Positions 9,426-45,099 of a stretch of 64,000 bases of DNA are shown here, one piece after another. The stretch spans positions 558,001 through 622,000 of the forward strand of contig CP091241.1 of NCBI GenBank assembly GCA_027627685.1. Reading direction: 5' to 3'. Origin of the DNA: Hyphomonadaceae bacterium ML37 (GTDB taxonomy: Bacteria > Pseudomonadota > Alphaproteobacteria > Caulobacterales > Maricaulaceae). Each line of letters begins with the position of its first letter. Position 1 is the stretch's first letter. Position numbers and translations under genes: made by a program. The notes beneath the pieces were generated by a model. It ran no database searches. It was not told where the DNA came from and saw only the letters and a program-made list of their open reading frames with translations.

Positions 9426-9517
9426 CGGTATCGGCGCGCGGGCCTGCGCGGATGGGTAAGGCCGCGGTAATGCCTTGAAAAGCCGATGTGATTTGCCCGG
9501 GAATTGCAGCCGCCTGG

Positions 9518-9532
9518 CGGCACAAGGCTTGC
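9518..9532 (+). promoter_or_regulatory. Sigma-54-type promoter of the first flagellin gene
   Basis: CGGCAC, five bases (AAGGC), then TTGC: a near-consensus -24/-12 element (consensus TGGCAC-N5-TTGC). It predicts transcription starting near 9544 and a leader of about 59 nt. Confidence 0.75.
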
Positions 9533-9541
9533 GCTGGCCCC

Positions 9542-9575
9542 GGCGGGACAAAATGTCCGCCGGCCAAAACGGCCG
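9542..9575 (+). other. Structured 5' leader of the first flagellin mRNA
   Basis: Two adjacent hairpins at the predicted 5' end. The first has arms 9542-9550 and 9554-9561 with an AAA loop and one bulged G. The second has arms 9561-9565 and 9571-9575 (CGGCC and GGCCG) around AAAAC. The first shares its A-AAA-T core with leaders of the next two flagellin genes. Confidence 0.55.
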
Positions 9576-9602
9576 TTCGCTTCCAGAACGGAGGAACCCC
9601 CC

Positions 9603-10430
9603 ATGACAAACTCGGTGAATACGAACCCCGGAGCGATGATCGCGCTCCAGAATCTGAACAAGTCCAATATGGAGCTGCAACAGGTGCAGAACCGTATCAA
9701 TACGGGCCTCAATATCGCGGGTGCGAAGGATAATGGCGGCATTTTCGCCATCGCCCAGCGTATGCGCGCCGAGGTGTCGGGCTATGGGGTTGTTCAGCAG
9801 TCTCTGGACCGTGGCAACGCGACGCTTGATGTGTCGCTGGCCGCGGGTGAAGCGATCTCGGATCTCCTGATCGAGATGAAGGAAAAGGCTCTCGCTGCCG
9901 CTGACACATCGCTGGATACGGCCAGCCGGAGCGCTTTGAACGAAGATTTCATGGCGCTGCGCAACCAGATCTCGACGATTGTGGAGAACGCGGAATTCAA
10001 CGGCGTGAACCTGATCGACGGCTCGACAGACGCTTTCGTTGCGCTGGCAAACCAGGACGGCTCGAACACCATCACAGTGCCCTCAGAGGACATGTCCCTG
10101 TCGGGTGCCGTTGTGACGGTGGGCGCCGCCGCCTCGTTTGCGACCGCCACCCAGGCCTCGGACATCGCCTCTCAGATCGCCTCCTCGCTGGATGCGGTCA
10201 ACGAGTCGCTGGCCCGGCTCGGGACCAAGTCGAAGGCGCTGGAGATCCACTCCACGTTCGTGACCAAGCTGTCGGACACGCTGGAGAAAGGCATCGGCAA
10301 TCTCGTCGACGCAGATTTGGCCAAGGAGTCCGCCCGGCTCCAGTCGCTGCAGGTCAAGCAGCAGCTGGGAATCCAGGCGCTCTCCATCGCCAATGCGTCG
10401 CCGCAGTCTGTCCTGTCCTTCTTCCGCTAG
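9603..10430 (+). CDS. Flagellin (paralogue 1)
   Basis: A 275-residue flagellin of the short Caulobacter type, forming the filament after export through the flagellar type III apparatus. The N-terminal D0/D1 helix reads NTNPGAMIALQNLNKSN. The C-terminal helix reads LADLAKESARLQSLQ-type sequence and ends SPQSVLSFFR. The middle domain is short. The start MTNSVN is set by GGAGG at 9591-9595. It differs from paralogues 2 and 3 across the central region and has its own sigma-54 promoter and terminator, so it is an independent transcription unit. Confidence 0.95.
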   Translation: MTNSVNTNPGAMIALQNLNKSNMELQQVQNRINTGLNIAGAKDNGGIFAIAQRMRAEVSGYGVVQQSLDRGNATLDVSLAAGEAISDLLIEMKEKALAAADTSLDTASRSALNEDFMALRNQISTIVENAEFNGVNLIDGSTDAFVALANQDGSNTITVPSEDMSLSGAVVTVGAAASFATATQASDIASQIASSLDAVNESLARLGTKSKALEIHSTFVTKLSDTLEKGIGNLVDADLAKESARLQSLQVKQQLGIQALSIANASPQSVLSFFR

Positions 10431-10438
10431 GGAAGGTG

Positions 10439-10469
10439 CCGGGGCCGCCGCATGGCGGTCCCGGTTTTT
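10439..10469 (+). terminator. Intrinsic terminator after flagellin 1
   Basis: Hairpin with arms CCGGGGCCGCC (10439-10449) and GGCGGTCCCGG (10454-10464), one G-T pair, followed by TTTTT (10465-10469). It ends the flagellin 1 transcript inside the 353-bp gap 10431-10783, which also holds a CtrA-type box, CCCGGCA-type elements and the flagellin 2 promoter. Confidence 0.85.
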
Positions 10470-10487
10470 CTTTGGCTTCGAAACGCG

Positions 10488-10503
10488 TTAACCCTTGATT
10501 AAC
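10488..10503 (+). promoter_or_regulatory. CtrA-type box between flagellins 1 and 2
   Basis: TTAA-CCCTTGA-TTAA-C, a full match to the TTAA-N7-TTAA binding consensus of the cell-cycle regulator CtrA. It lies about 190 bp upstream of the flagellin 2 -24 box. Binding is inferred from the motif and the apparent lineage. Confidence 0.6.
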
Positions 10504-10540
10504 CCTGCGGCGGGTCGCGCCGCCAGCCCCGCCCGAATCA

Positions 10541-10610
10541 CCCGGCAGATTATGCCCGGCGGGTAGAAATTGCCGGGCGTCTCGCGGCTTTACCGGGCAA
10601 AAACTGCCGC
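10541..10610 (+). promoter_or_regulatory. Cluster of CCCGGCA-type elements upstream of flagellin 2
   Basis: Repeated related words: CCCGGCAGA at 10541, TGCCCGGC at 10553, TTGCCGGGC at 10570, ACCGGGCAA at 10592 and ACTGCCG at 10603. They lie about 85-155 bp upstream of the -24 box of the sigma-54-type promoter, the usual range for an enhancer-binding activator such as FlbD. Function is inferred. Confidence 0.45.
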
Positions 10611-10694
10611 ATGCCGTCCGGCCTCGCGCTGCCCTTCCGAAAAATCCTCATAAAAAACAAAGACCTGAAAAATCATCATCCATGGGCCGCCAAT

Positions 10695-10710
10695 TGGCCC
10701 CGGGCTTGCT
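10695..10710 (+). promoter_or_regulatory. Sigma-54-type promoter of flagellin 2
   Basis: TGGCCC, five bases (CGGGC), TTGCT: one mismatch to the -24/-12 consensus. Transcription would start near 10721. No separate sigma-54 element is visible before flagellin 3, so this promoter may serve both. Confidence 0.75.
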
Positions 10711-10739
10711 GTTGCTCCTGCGGGCCAGAAGGCCCCGCC

Positions 10740-10776
10740 CGCAAAATGCGTGCGTTCACACGTAGAAACGTAGGAG
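10740..10776 (+). other. Structured 5' leader of flagellin 2 mRNA
   Basis: Two hairpins before the ribosome binding site: CGCA-AAA-TGCG (10740-10750) and ACGT-AGAA-ACGT (10760-10771). The Shine-Dalgarno AGGAG follows at 10772-10776, so the second hairpin abuts it. Both have pairing-conserved counterparts in the flagellin 3 leader. Confidence 0.6.
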
Positions 10777-10783
10777 CCAAGAA

Positions 10784-11608
10784 ATGGCGACGATCAATAC
10801 GAATCCGGGCGCGATGATCGCCCTGCAGAACCTCAACCAGACCAACCGCGACCTGATGCAGGTCCAGAACCGGATCAATACCGGTCTTGCGGTCTCCTCC
10901 GCCAAAGACAATGGCGGCATTTTCGCCATCGCCCAGGGCATGCGCAGCGAAGTGGCCGGCCTTCGCGCCGTCAACCAGTCGCTGGATCTGGCCGTCTCGG
11001 TCACCGATGTCGGCCTGGCGGCCGGCGAAGCCATCTCCGACCTGCTGATCGAGATGAAGGAAAAGGCTTTGGCCGCTTCCGACACCTCGCTGGACACGGC
11101 GTCGCGTGATGCACTGAACGAAGACTTCTCCGCCCTGCGCGATCAGATCGGTACGATCGTGGAGAACGCCGAGTTCAACGGCATCAACCTGATCAATAAC
11201 GGTGCCGATGCGATTTCGGCTCTGGCCAATGCTGACGGCTCGAACACCATCACCGTCGCGGCCGAGGACATGAGCCTCACCGGCACGACCCTCACCATCA
11301 CCGCCGGCACTGAAATCGACACCACGACCAATGCTGCGGCGGCGGCCACGGCTCTCGAGACCTCACTCACCAACATTAACTCGGCTCTGGCGCGTCTGGG
11401 CACTTCGTCCAAGTCGCTGGAGATCCACAAGACGTTCGTGGGCAAGCTCTCCGACACCCTTGAAAAGGGCATCGGCAATCTGGTCGACGCCGATCTGGCC
11501 AAAGAATCTGCCCGGCTCCAGTCGCTGCAGGTCAAGCAGCAGCTGGGCATCCAGGCGCTCTCCATCGCCAACTCGGCGCCGAGCACGATCCTGGGCTTCT
11601 TCCGCTAG
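10784..11608 (+). CDS. Flagellin (paralogue 2)
   Basis: A 274-residue flagellin with the same architecture as paralogue 1: N-terminal helix starting ATINTNPGAMIALQNLNQTN and C-terminal helix ending NSAPSTILGFFR. It is nearly identical to paralogue 3 over the first third and last quarter. The variable middle differs (here a Thr-rich TLTITAGTEIDTTTNAAAA segment, which could be glycosylated). The start is fixed by AGGAG at 10772-10776. No terminator is visible before paralogue 3, 116 bp downstream, so both are likely on one transcript. Confidence 0.95.
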   Translation: MATINTNPGAMIALQNLNQTNRDLMQVQNRINTGLAVSSAKDNGGIFAIAQGMRSEVAGLRAVNQSLDLAVSVTDVGLAAGEAISDLLIEMKEKALAASDTSLDTASRDALNEDFSALRDQIGTIVENAEFNGINLINNGADAISALANADGSNTITVAAEDMSLTGTTLTITAGTEIDTTTNAAAAATALETSLTNINSALARLGTSSKSLEIHKTFVGKLSDTLEKGIGNLVDADLAKESARLQSLQVKQQLGIQALSIANSAPSTILGFFR

Positions 11609-11668
11609 GAAAAGGCCTGACTGAATTCGGCGCCGGGACGGCAGAACGCCGGACCGGTGCCGGACACG

Positions 11669-11717
11669 GCGCACAAAATGTGCGCGTCCAACCGTAGAAA
11701 CGGACCCTCGAAAGGAG
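11669..11717 (+). other. Structured 5' leader or intergenic hairpins of flagellin 3
   Basis: A perfect 7-bp stem GCGCACA-AAA-TGTGCGC (11669-11685), then CCGT-AGAA-ACGG (11692-11703), then GGAG at 11714-11717. These match the flagellin 2 leader in order and loop sequence, with compensating stem changes. No -24/-12 promoter was found in 11609-11668. Confidence 0.6.
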
Positions 11718-11724
11718 CCAAGAA

Positions 11725-12552
11725 ATGGCGACGATCAATACCAATCCGGGCGCGATGATCGCCCTGCAGAACCTGAACCAGACCAACAAGGACCTGATGC
11801 AGGTCCAGAACCGGATCAATACCGGTCTTGCGGTCTCCTCCGCCAAGGACAATGGCGGTATTTTCGCCATCGCCCAGAACATGCGCTCTGAAGTGGGCGG
11901 CCTGCGCGCCGTCAACCAGTCGCTGGATCTGGCCGTGTCGGTCACCGATGTGGCGCTGGCCGCCGGTGAAGCGATCTCCGACCTCCTGATCGAGATGAAG
12001 GAAAAGGCGCTGGCCGCTTCCGACACCTCGCTGGACACGGCGTCGCGTACGGCCCTGAACGAGGACTTCACCGCGCTTCGCGATCAGATCGGCACGATCG
12101 TGGAGAACGCCGAGTTCAACGGCGTCAACCTGATCGACGGCTCGGTCACCGGCGGCATCTCGGCTCTGGCCAATGCTGACGGCTCCAACACGATCTCGGT
12201 CGTGGACGAGGACATGAGCCTGGGCGGGTCCATCGTGGCCCTGGCGGCGACCGCATCGTTTGCGACCGCTACCGAGGCGTCCGACATCGTGAGCGATATC
12301 GAAGACTCCCTGACGGCCATCAACTCTTCGCTGGCCCGGCTGGGGACGTCGTCCAAAGCGCTCGAGATCCACAAGACCTTCGTGGGCAAGCTGTCCGACA
12401 CCCTTGAAAAAGGCATCGGCAATCTCGTCGACGCTGATCTGGCCAAAGAGTCCGCCCGTCTCCAGTCGCTGCAGGTCAAGCAGCAGCTGGGCATCCAGGC
12501 GCTCTCGATCGCCAACTCGGCGCCGAGCACGATCCTGGGCTTCTTCCGCTAG
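11725..12552 (+). CDS. Flagellin (paralogue 3)
   Basis: A 275-residue flagellin, start set by GGAG eight bases upstream of the ATG. The first 100 or so residues match paralogue 2 except for a few substitutions (for example NKDLMQVQ for NRDLMQVQ). The C-terminus is again NSAPSTILGFFR. The central variable segment contains GGSIVALAATASFATATEASDI, closer to paralogue 1 than to paralogue 2, giving a mosaic look that fits recombination between copies. It probably depends on the paralogue 2 promoter. Confidence 0.95.
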   Translation: MATINTNPGAMIALQNLNQTNKDLMQVQNRINTGLAVSSAKDNGGIFAIAQNMRSEVGGLRAVNQSLDLAVSVTDVALAAGEAISDLLIEMKEKALAASDTSLDTASRTALNEDFTALRDQIGTIVENAEFNGVNLIDGSVTGGISALANADGSNTISVVDEDMSLGGSIVALAATASFATATEASDIVSDIEDSLTAINSSLARLGTSSKALEIHKTFVGKLSDTLEKGIGNLVDADLAKESARLQSLQVKQQLGIQALSIANSAPSTILGFFR

Positions 12553-13101: not shown

Positions 13102-13104
13102 TCG

Positions 13105-13133
13105 CCCGGCAAGACTGACCGGCCCGCCCGGCA
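13105..13133 (+). promoter_or_regulatory. Candidate enhancer elements for flagellin 4
   Basis: Two direct copies, CCCGGCAAGA (13105) and CCCGGCAGAA (13127), about 100-125 bp upstream of the -24 box. The first matches the inverted element upstream of flagellin 1 over ten bases. Confidence 0.45.
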
Positions 13134-13230
13134 GAAATTAACCACACCCATGCGCGTCCGGCCGGACCGGGCGACGGCGTCATCGCCATAACCCCATGAT
13201 TTAAATAGGTTCTGAGTCTGGCCCGCCATG

Positions 13231-13246
13231 TGGTCCGGGCCTTGCT
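13231..13246 (+). promoter_or_regulatory. Sigma-54-type promoter of flagellin 4
   Basis: TGGTCC, five bases (GGGCC), TTGCT: near consensus and very similar to the flagellin 2 promoter. Predicted start near 13257, giving a leader of about 44 nt without the AAA-loop hairpin seen in the other three. Confidence 0.7.
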
Positions 13247-13300
13247 CCTGTTCGTGCGACAGCGCTGCGGAATGCGGCGGCGGGATACAGGAGAAGACCT

Positions 13301-14134
13301 ATGGCGTTGAGCGTCCACACCAACACTTCGGCGATGATCGCCCTGCAGAACCTGAACAAGACCAATCAGGACATGAACGGGGTCCAGAACCGGATCAACA
13401 CCGGCTTCCGCGTGTCGGGCGCCAAGGACAATTCAGCCGTTTTCGCCGTCGCGCAGGGCATGCGCTCTGACATTGGCGCGCTGGGATCAGTGCAGGGCTC
13501 GCTGGACCGCGCGGTGTCCATCACCGATGTGGGCATCGCCGCCGCCGAGGCGATCTCCGATCTCCTGATTGAGATGCGCGAGAAAGCCACCGCCGCCATG
13601 GACCCGTCCATCGACGCGTTCGCACGCCAGGCCTATGACGGCGACTTCAAGGCGCTGATGGAGCAGGTCAATGTGATCATCTCCAATGCCGAGTTCGACG
13701 GCGCGAACATCCTCAACGGCAGCCTGACCAACGGCATCGACTTCCTGGCCGACGCCGATGCGGCCCGCACCATCAACCTGTCCGCCCACGACATGTCCTT
13801 CTCCGGCGCCATCATGACCATTTCCAGCACGGCGAGCCTGGGCACGGTCACGCTGGCCGGCCAGGTGGTCAGCGCAATCTCGGAAAGCCTCGATAATGTG
13901 AACCAGGCGCTGGCCAATCTGGGCTCTGACGGCAAGAAGCTGGAGGCGCACCGCACCTTTGTGGGCAAGCTGACCGATGCCCTGACCAAGGGCGTGGGCA
14001 ATCTGGTGGACGCAGACCTCGCCAAGGAAGGCGCGCGCCTTCAGGCCCTGCAGGTCAAGCAGCAGCTGGGGGTTCAGGCGCTGTCCATCGCCAACTCCGA
14101 GCCGCAGATCATCCTGTCGCTGTTCAACCGGTAG
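13301..14134 (+). CDS. Flagellin (paralogue 4, divergent)
   Basis: A 277-residue flagellin with the same conserved ends (NTSAMIALQNLNKTNQDMNGVQNRINTG at the N-terminus; DADLAKEGARLQALQVKQQLGVQALSIANS near the C-terminus, ending ILSLFNR) but clearly divergent from paralogues 1-3 throughout. AGGAG at 13290-13294 sets the start. Its own promoter, terminator and lack of the shared leader hairpin mark it as separately controlled. In Caulobacter, different flagellins occupy different filament zones, so a hook-proximal or other specialised role is possible but unproven. Confidence 0.94.
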   Translation: MALSVHTNTSAMIALQNLNKTNQDMNGVQNRINTGFRVSGAKDNSAVFAVAQGMRSDIGALGSVQGSLDRAVSITDVGIAAAEAISDLLIEMREKATAAMDPSIDAFARQAYDGDFKALMEQVNVIISNAEFDGANILNGSLTNGIDFLADADAARTINLSAHDMSFSGAIMTISSTASLGTVTLAGQVVSAISESLDNVNQALANLGSDGKKLEAHRTFVGKLTDALTKGVGNLVDADLAKEGARLQALQVKQQLGVQALSIANSEPQIILSLFNR

Positions 14135-43327: not shown

Positions 43328-45099
43328 CAGAAGGCCTGTCCGATGGAGATGTAGATCTGTATCCAGTCCTCGTCCGGGCGCCGGTCCAGCGGCGTGGCGA
43401 TGTCAAAGCGCAGCGGGCCGAAGCCGGGATAATAGCGCACGCCCAGCCCCGCCCCGTAGCGGATATCGCCCAGGTTCGGGCTGAGCTCCGGCCCGGCCGC
43501 TCCGCCATCGATGAAGGCGGTGAAGCCCAGGCGTTCCGACCGGCGCCAGCGCGCCTCGGCGCTGAACTCGGCCAGCGACCGTCCGCCGAACACCTCGTCC
43601 TCGCCGGTGTCGGGATTGAAGCGCCGGGGCGAGAGCGACTGGAAGTCGTAACCGCGCACCGACCCGCCGCCGCCGGCATAGAAGCGCTCGTCAGCGGGCA
43701 GGGCGTCCGGGGACGTGCCAAGAATGGCCCCGGCGCGCACGCGCGCGGCCAGCACCAGCGTGTCGCTCAGCGGATAATAGGCGCGCATGCCGCTTTCCAC
43801 GCGGATATAGCGCGTCTCCTGGCTGCCGATGGACCAGCCCGGCGCGGCGGTGGCGTTCAGATAAATGCCGCGCTGGGGGTCCAAAAGACTGTCGCGCCCG
43901 TCCCAGATCACCCCGCTGGGCAGTGAGAGCGTGGTCGCTGACCGCGTGCCCAGCACATCGGTCACCCGGGCGGTCTGGAGCCGCGTCCCGGCGGTGACGC
44001 TCAGCCGGTCCGTGACCTGCCGGGCGACGGATGCCGATACGCGAAACACATCCTGATCAAAGGCGTCAGTGCGCTCGGCCAGAAGCTCGGCGCTGAGGGT
44101 CAGGTCCTGACCATAGCGGCGCCAATGGGGCACGGTGAGGCGGGTGACGAAGCCCTGCACCAGCTCGGCGGCCTGACCGCTGATCAGCAGCGTCTCGTCG
44201 CCGCGGAACATGTTGCGCCGGGTCCAGGCGGCCTCTGCGCCCGCGCCTTCGGAGGTGGACCAGCGCACGGCGCCTTCGATGCGGTGGCGCGGCGTGGGAT
44301 CGGCGCGCACGTCCACCGGGCGCAACCCGTCCTCGTCATCGGGCGCCAGGCGCACATCGGCCACCGAGACTGATTGCAGGACCTGCAGGCGGCGGCTGTA
44401 CTCATTGAGCGCGCTGCGGTTGGCGGGATCGCCGATCTCGTACGGCGCCAGGCGTTCGATGAAGCCGGGGCGCAGATCGGCCAGACCGCCGGCGAATTGC
44501 GGCGCGCCCAGACGGATGAAGGGGCCGGGGTGGAAGCGGAAGGCGGCGTCGGCGCTCCGGGTGGCGTGATCGACGATGATGTCGTGCTCGCCCTCGCGCG
44601 CTTCAAGATAGCCGTTCTCGTGCAGCAGCGTCACGACGCGTCCGCGCGCCTCGATGACGTCGGCGGAGACCACCGGATCGCCAACGGCCAGCTCCAGCGC
44701 GTCCTGCGCCTCGCCGCCGGGCGCGCCGGGCGCATCGGCGTCCACCCAGTCAATGGCGATGGCGTCGAACACGAAGCGCTCGCCTGTGCGCACCCGCACC
44801 ACCGCCTGCCCGTCCTCAGCCACGCGCGGATCGACGACGGCGCCGTAATAGCCCTGGGAATTGAGGTAGCGTTCAAGGATGTCGCTGGCTTCGCGCGCCC
44901 GCGCCCTGGCGCGCCACGGCGCATCGGGTTCACCGGATGGCCGCGCGTCTGCCTCGCCCACCGCCCGTGACAGGGCACGCGCCAGGGCGGCGTCTTCCAC
45001 GCCTTCGATTCGCGCCAGCGGCTCGGCCATCGCCGCGGCAAGCCCGAGCCAAAGTGCCGCCAGCATGGCGGACAGAAATCGTATAGCGCGAAAAATCAC
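43327..45099 (-). CDS. tamA: Outer-membrane TamA (BamA/Omp85 family)
   Basis: About 590 residues from a GTG start at 45099 that gives a signal peptide (IRFLSAMLAALWLGLAAAMAEP); an internal ATG at 45066 is an alternative. POTRA-type domains occupy about 30-260, and the C-terminal 16-strand barrel ends in the Omp85 signature: GGGGSVRGYDFQSLSP, GFTAFIDGGAAG, GLGVRYYPGFGPLRFDIATPL and a final Phe. It directly precedes and overlaps tamB. It works with TamB in outer-membrane biogenesis. Confidence 0.93.
   Translation of the reverse strand: MIFRAIRFLSAMLAALWLGLAAAMAEPLARIEGVEDAALARALSRAVGEADARPSGEPDAPWRARARAREASDILERYLNSQGYYGAVVDPRVAEDGQAVVRVRTGERFVFDAIAIDWVDADAPGAPGGEAQDALELAVGDPVVSADVIEARGRVVTLLHENGYLEAREGEHDIIVDHATRSADAAFRFHPGPFIRLGAPQFAGGLADLRPGFIERLAPYEIGDPANRSALNEYSRRLQVLQSVSVADVRLAPDDEDGLRPVDVRADPTPRHRIEGAVRWSTSEGAGAEAAWTRRNMFRGDETLLISGQAAELVQGFVTRLTVPHWRRYGQDLTLSAELLAERTDAFDQDVFRVSASVARQVTDRLSVTAGTRLQTARVTDVLGTRSATTLSLPSGVIWDGRDSLLDPQRGIYLNATAAPGWSIGSQETRYIRVESGMRAYYPLSDTLVLAARVRAGAILGTSPDALPADERFYAGGGGSVRGYDFQSLSPRRFNPDTGEDEVFGGRSLAEFSAEARWRRSERLGFTAFIDGGAAGPELSPNLGDIRYGAGLGVRYYPGFGPLRFDIATPLDRRPDEDWIQIYISIGQAF

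Follow-up and report, generated by a model that had tools for sequence, protein, structure and literature searches.

We analysed the flagellin gene leaders in a 64,000-nucleotide (nt) stretch of the genome of Hyphomonadaceae bacterium ML37 (GenBank assembly GCA_027627685.1, contig CP091241.1, positions 558,001 to 622,000 of the forward strand), referred to here as the window. Four flagellin genes lie on the + strand: the structural-type genes fla1 (9603..10430), fla2 (10784..11608) and fla3 (11725..12552), and the divergent, putatively FljJ-like fla4 (13301..14134). A FlaG-like gene sits between fla3 and fla4. Each of the three structural-type genes has a leader with a tandem array of two or three short hairpins, and these share a loop pattern, C-ARAA(N)-G; the fla4 leader has no such hairpin. 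All features described below are on the + strand.

In fla1, a sigma-54-like promoter (GG-N10-GC) was read from the sequence at 9519..9532. The predicted start, placed by convention 12 nt past the promoter GC, is near 9544. Three hairpins follow, each found in the sequence and in the minimum-energy fold: A (9542..9561, with the core GGAC-AAAAT-GTCC at 9546-9558 and bulged outer pairs), B (9562..9574, GGCC-AAAAC-GGCC) and C (9580..9594, CTTCC-AGAAC-GGAGG), whose 3′ arm is the Shine-Dalgarno sequence GGAGG. The predicted start falls within the outermost pairs of hairpin A; these pairs lay outside the folding test, which began at 9544. The centroid fold keeps just two inner pairs of hairpin C. For fla2, there is a sigma-54-like box at 10696..10709, a predicted start near 10721, and hairpins A (10722..10735, GGGCC-AGAA-GGCCC), B (10737..10753, with the inner stem CGC-AAAAT-GCG at 10740-10750) and C (10760..10771, ACGT-AGAA-ACGT, directly 5′ of the Shine-Dalgarno sequence at 10773-10776). 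These hairpins, too, are present in the sequence and in the minimum-energy fold.

No sigma-54-like box was seen in the 116 nt separating fla2 from fla3. The sequence and minimum-energy fold of the fla3 leader hold hairpin B (11669..11685, GCGCAC-AAAAT-GTGCGC) and hairpin C (11692..11703, CCGT-AGAA-ACGG), preceded by the top of a longer intergenic hairpin (11639..11651, CGGC-AGAAC-GCCG). The stretch 11627-11727 had a fold-energy z score of -5.63. The long hairpin with this top occupies 11611-11668, where other copies carry the promoter and hairpin A; in many relatives, the fla2-fla3 gap is dissimilar in sequence and hairpin B is kept. A third hairpin, on or beside the Shine-Dalgarno sequence, is present in all three leaders and is weaker. 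A sigma-54-like box was also read before fla4 (13232-13245); this promoter and the short hairpin-less leader together span 13232..13300.

Directly 3′ of fla1, at 10438-10465, there is a good intrinsic-terminator-like hairpin followed by T's; fla1 is therefore probably a separate transcript. None of eight listed intrinsic terminator sites coincided with one of the + strand leader hairpins. Palindrome-like stretches lie upstream of flagellin promoters at 10543-10610, 13104-13142 and 9490-9511 (e.g., GGGCAAAAACTGCCGC and CCCGGCAGAAATTAACC), and are reminiscent of FlbD (ftr) sites.

A sequence-only reading of this locus had noted one hairpin in each of the three structural flagellin leaders. The inverted repeats that it reported, at 9542-9561 (GGCGGGACAAAATGTCCGCC), 10740-10750 (CGCAAAATGCG) and 11669-11685 (GCGCACAAAATGTGCGC), were present, and all three hairpins appeared in the minimum-energy folds of the leaders. 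Its statement that stem sequences vary while pairing is kept, apart from one bulge (in fla1), was borne out. Sequence and fold also agreed with its view that fla4 has no such hairpin: the fla4 leader (13250-13303) folded no better than shuffles (z, -0.39). The z score was -1.10 for fla1 (28 of 200 shuffles equally good), -3.58 for fla2 and -2.89 for fla3. Thus, fla1 is unremarkable by fold energy alone, and the case rests on comparison with relatives. Other parts of the reading were revised. The leaders hold tandem arrays of two or three hairpins instead of one; the three noted hairpins are not equivalent, since that of fla1 is the first of its array and those of fla2 and fla3 are the second; and they extend from 61 to 34 nt upstream of the start codon, where 39-60 nt had been stated. 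The A-AAA-T top taken to be the common core is not conserved as such, because its A-T pair varies. The earlier observation is evidently real but concerns part of a larger element.

To compare leaders among relatives, we assembled two sets. The family was represented by 79 genomes, and a flagellin protein search gave matches in 56. The family set consisted of 55 stretches from 42 of these 56 (own genome included); the other 14 matched genomes have divergent flagellin and were analysed apart. The named-genome set was obtained with a FlbT alignment as query and consisted of the best 80 of 569 confirmed stretches, each taken together with at most 10 kb of flanking sequence. By title these were mostly Maricaulaceae, Hyphomonadaceae and Caulobacteraceae; some were labelled just Alphaproteobacteria or Proteobacteria, so this set is not strictly one order. 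Removal of identical leaders and of those with <150 nt upstream left 285 leaders, each assigned a type by its best-matching window flagellin: 211 of fla1-3 (structural) type and 74 of fla4 type. A hairpin was scored when a C-G pair closed A[A/G]AA or A[A/G]AAN on a stem of at least 4 pairs.

The structural leaders contained 280 such hairpins, vs. 1.8 in mononucleotide shuffles, and 178 of the 211 had at least one. In the same-family subset, 110 fla1-3-type leaders had 161 hairpins (0.94 expected from mononucleotide shuffles). When any C-G-closed loop of 4-5 nt on a stem of at least 5 was allowed, at least 209 of 272 hairpins were of ARAA type, and the next loop occurred 5 times. Among 229 loops of five letters, the last position was C in 110, T in 75, A in 23 and G in 21. 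This position is evidently free, and the A-T pair is accidental to the three genes of the window. Conservation resides in the loop, where a C-G pair encloses A[A/G]AA or A[A/G]AAN. In the fla4-type leaders, 66 of 74 had no hairpin.

Pairing in the leaders of relatives had been set beforehand as one of two tests on which the sequence-only reading could fail. It held, and the arms covary. For this test, arms were chosen by loop letters alone and compared with re-dealt partners. In 239 distinct ARAAN arm pairs, the next four positions were Watson-Crick in 86, 74, 56 and 51% of cases, vs. 34, 29, 33 and 33% after re-dealing, and all four pair types occurred. For 65 AGAA/AAAA tetraloop arms the corresponding values were 65, 66, 71 and 46% vs. 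27, 45, 51 and 35%. Pairing in 14 distinct fla4-type arms was within the shuffled range, with no excess. Stems of at least 4 pairs were formed by 127 of 166 AAAAN arms and 32 of 42 AGAA arms. We also aligned hairpins A and B of 25 leaders without gaps; this is a favourable subset, picked for spacing. In it, 95.3% of cells paired (83.0% when shuffled, 26-43% when slid), double changes numbered 31 vs. 9.3, and 6 of 11 pairs varied on both sides, a level reached by 48 of 500 shuffles.

The non-Watson-Crick cells flanked by pairs were G-U in 61 cases and A-C in 16. The 280 ARAA(N) hairpins of the 211 structural leaders are on the coding strand, and hairpins of the complementary (antisense) kind numbered 0. 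The hairpins had 47 different four-letter stem starts. The excess of G-U over A-C and the lack of an antisense version show that the hairpins are RNA rather than DNA elements.

Of the 211 structural leaders, 171 have a sigma-54-like box, which in 133 cases implies a leader length of 60-69 nt. When C-ARAA(N)-G motifs were located by letters, their positions relative to the predicted start were concentrated in three intervals: 0 to +9, +20 to +29 and +40 to +49. The element is thus placed 3′ of the predicted sigma-54 start and 5′ of genes of fla1-3 type. The second condition under which the sequence-only reading would fail, 5′ ends lying past the hairpin, was checked by this promoter prediction. 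When a narrower stretch was considered, 169 leaders had a box, and 147 of these held a hairpin, as did 31 of the 42 that lacked a box. Because most box-less leaders still hold a hairpin, the hairpins are not promoter parts. Near the start codon, the last 40 nt of the 211 structural leaders contained yCAGAANGr in 119 and TAGAA in 43.

The specificity of the array was assessed with R1, a model of hairpins A and B; these leaders formed part of its training set, and it detects the fla1 and fla3 types weakly. On the window, R1 matched fla2 (10720-10754, 49.7 bits) and, weakly, fla3 (11660-11686, 20.7 bits). A further match at 43707-43747 (17.0 bits, E 0.1) is away from any flagellin and is probably due to chance. 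In the 79 family genomes, all 31 strong matches (E ≤4e-6) were directly before a flagellin start by coordinates; 29 were assigned from the flagellin protein search, and two (G034 and G072) separately. The next match was 7.5 bits lower, and weaker, chance-level matches occurred in 74 of the 79 genomes. Double hairpins were searched for in 1.5 Mb (the window and the named loci). All 59 were within 130 nt before fla1-3-type flagellins; none was found elsewhere in this sequence or before fla4-type genes, and none in 0.76 Mb of shuffled sequence. These figures describe flagellar neighbourhoods, some of them from near-identical genomes, rather than whole genomes. No hairpin was found in 23 leaders, one per genome, from genomes without FlbT. 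Rfam release 15 had no match for the element.

FlbT and FlaF are encoded side by side 7 kb before the window (L096:1495-1893 and L096:1903-2271). FlbT matches PF07378 (9.6e-46, at G000:C1:550767), and FlbT was matched in 56 of the 79 family genomes; every one of the 31 genomes with a strong R1 match was among them. FlbT is described as acting on flagellin 5′ untranslated regions, by a mechanism left unsettled, and as a repressor in Caulobacter (PMC4347634, PMC3930126). The interactions of FlbT are described as confined to FljJ, a regulatory flagellin 49% identical to the others, whose export lifts the repression (PMC7591256). The fla4 product is 57-60% identical to those of fla1-3, which are 72-85% identical among themselves, and its matches to solved structural flagellins of Caulobacter are poorer than those of fla3 (best match 9.1e-63 vs. 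1.2e-81). This divergence, the poorer match and the lack of an array suggest that fla4 is the counterpart of FljJ. A flagellin tree was calculated from 79 flagellins from a chosen list of loci, with a looser hairpin count (stem of at least 3, C-G or T-A closing). A 49-member branch with weak support (80/86) had two or more hairpins in 31 members, one in 16 and none in 2; the 11-member fla4 branch (97/96) had none in 9 and one in 2. Fla4-type members of other families fell outside this branch. Two Hyphomonadaceae-like loci, L227 (10929, 12462) and L233 (8203, 9940), have close flagellin paralogs, one with and one without an array. The split of paralogs into array and no-array types may, on the evidence of these two loci, have arisen more than once.

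An AlphaFold2 model of FlbT on 58 sequences (predicted local distance difference test score, 88.4) has five strands and four helices. Foldseek searches with the whole model and with the N-terminal domain gave nothing significant, and a sequence search revealed no solved FlbT structure up to E 10. The five N-terminal strands and the sequence LKLSLKPGE...VLREKDI seemed similar to CsrA and prompted a comparison with it. Kinship was not supported: the hhalign probability (1.27) was inside the shuffled range, with a shallow CsrA profile (number of effective sequences, 1.9), and no CsrA was among the best 50 Foldseek matches listed per model, monomer models being used throughout. Both tests would have little power in the event of a strand-swapped dimer. 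CsrA itself gave no match in the own genome.

We consider it probable that the array is a FlbT-responsive operator of structural flagellin mRNAs, with FlbT as its reader. Such leaders would contain a cis-acting RNA operator of two or three short tandem hairpins, ~15-20 nt apart, each presenting a C-ARAA(N)-G loop and the last masking or abutting the Shine-Dalgarno sequence. The loops would supply the recognition letters, and the stems would hold the loops up. FlbT, helped by the hairpin-less, FljJ-like fla4 product, would bind several loops simultaneously, keep the Shine-Dalgarno sequence closed and favour mRNA decay. The block would last until the hook-basal body had been built and the co-repressor exported. 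The sequence-only reading had put forward the RNA element as a candidate FlbT site. That proposal now has strong circumstantial support, although the A-AAA-T core, the single hairpin and the equivalence of the three hairpins did not stand. It is strengthened because the element lies downstream of the predicted sigma-54 start, its arms covary, FlbT and FlaF are nearby, and it is mostly absent from leaders of FljJ-like type. Its absence from all 15 leaders beside a divergent FlbT and from all 23 of FlbT-less genomes likewise counts in favour of the operator.

Several observations weigh against the operator proposal. By the criterion used, 33 of the 211 structural leaders have no hairpin; some of these belong to scattered additional copies, e.g., the fifth flagellin of ML37 itself (L095). 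Conversely, 8 fla4-type leaders from 8 genomes have one hairpin, 4 of them at -31, inside the leader, and 4 at about -78, overlapping the promoter. The third hairpin is weak: a stem of at least 4 was formed by just 16 of 75 distinct AGAAN arms, so that the Shine-Dalgarno-proximal hairpin is short in most leaders. Near the start codon, neither yCAGAANGr nor TAGAA is present in 49 of the 211 structural leaders. In same-family genomes with divergent FlbT, which carry SSILTN-, SSIITN- or SSINTN-type flagellins, a hairpin was found in 0 of 15 leaders from 14 genomes; another 3 matches were weak or partial and lie outside these counts. Among FlbT-bearing genomes from the other orders of the class, a hairpin was found in 8 of 37 leaders and 8 of 21 genomes, of which L318 has a convincing array; these 21 were drawn from 48 relatives with FlbT, and one (G201) is probably already in the named set as L221. 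The last two results indicate that the array tracks one FlbT-flagellin system and that FlbT alone is no predictor. Finally, in Brucella, FlbT has been proposed as an activator (PMC4347634, PMC3930126).

Some features of these unusual copies were recorded separately. The fifth flagellin-like gene (G000:C1:1208960) has a GTG start and a frame that stops after 177 amino acids; the similarity extends over 948 nt, and the leader has no hairpins. Extra off-cluster copies at L057, L068, L074, L081 and L091 have a common leader end like gtgtgggggagccaagaa and no proper array. Divergent FlbT and SSILTN/SSINTN-type flagellins replace the main type in 14 family genomes (e.g., L336-L349 and L354-L367), and the 14 divergent FlbTs have an inserted residue near position 33.

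Four other explanations were considered. The loops may be read by another RNA-binding protein, such as Hfq or an unknown protein. Hfq has an A-rich binding site, the loop is A-rich, and FlbT alone does not predict the element; all 31 strong R1 matches in 79 genomes are nevertheless flagellin leaders, unlike the expectation for a general RNA chaperone, CsrA was not found in the own genome, and FlbT is the flagellin-specific candidate in print. We consider such a reader rather unlikely. Independently of FlbT, a hairpin at +1 might block 5′-end-dependent decay and give a long-lived flagellin mRNA. The first hairpin does begin at or right after the predicted start; however, a stabiliser would not need a conserved loop, yet the loop is the most conserved part; two or three hairpins are kept, and 31 of the 42 leaders without a promoter box still have a hairpin. 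A simple stabiliser is accordingly unlikely. Transcription factor binding to DNA palindromes, e.g., by FlbD at downstream ftr sites, was suggested by the binding of FlbD to ftr elements at flagellar promoters (PMC3930126). This explanation was set aside as very improbable by the G-U excess (61 vs. 16 A-C) and the strand asymmetry in 211 leaders, and the 47 stem starts and the hairpins in 31 of 42 box-less leaders also speak against it. Chance or functionless inheritance is scarcely credible: the flagellin genes are tandem duplicates and fla1 shows nothing unusual in fold energy (z, -1.10), but the copies share complementarity while their stem letters differ, and 0.76 Mb of shuffled sequence held no double hairpin.

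Among known systems, the FlbT operator proposed here is closest to fljK of Caulobacter crescentus, which is under FlbT control via its 5′ untranslated region and is similar in gene type, in place and in the presence of FlbT and FlaF. Stem-loops for fljK may already appear in the work of Anderson and Gober. The accessible fljK literature names no recognition motif; our description of the array, including its spacing and how widely it occurs, comes from sequence. More broadly, in the accessible parts of the literature on FlbT, FlaF, FljJ, flg-Rhizobiales and flagellin leader RNA motifs, we recognised no description of the array. A divergent, putatively regulatory flagellin paralog is a further similarity to C. 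crescentus, where the regulatory paralog also stands apart (PMC7591256).

The flg-Rhizobiales RNA (Rfam RF01736) is, like the array, a candidate structured RNA of alphaproteobacteria (PMC2864571). It differs in having 141 positions. It was rejected as the same element: its model matched neither the own genome nor the second genome of the same order that was searched, and in 142 genomes of the class no match passed the cut-off. The flg-Rhizobiales RNA is linked to flagellar genes. The array would add an RNA family unmatched by Rfam release 15.

If the operator proposal is right, the array also resembles CsrA-FliW of Campylobacter and Bacillus, in which several leader hairpin loops, one at the Shine-Dalgarno sequence, are tied to assembly. 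FlaF/FlbT has been suggested as a system analogous to CsrA-FliW (PMC4894983). The differences are that the loop here is ARAA(N) and not GGA, that CsrA was not detected in the own genome, and that FlbT has no detectable CsrA kinship. We would give about even chances to the more specific proposal that FlbT reads C-ARAA(N)-G loops at about +5, +20 and +40 as CsrA reads GGA, with the hairpin-less paralog as co-repressor; this would be a convergent assembly checkpoint in which the checkpoint paralog has dropped the code. A loop code with defined spacing makes FlbT recognition directly testable by mutation and would allow the paralogs that are free of repression to be predicted genome by genome. Flagellin control by a hairpin-loop array would then be known from two systems, CsrA-FliW being the other.

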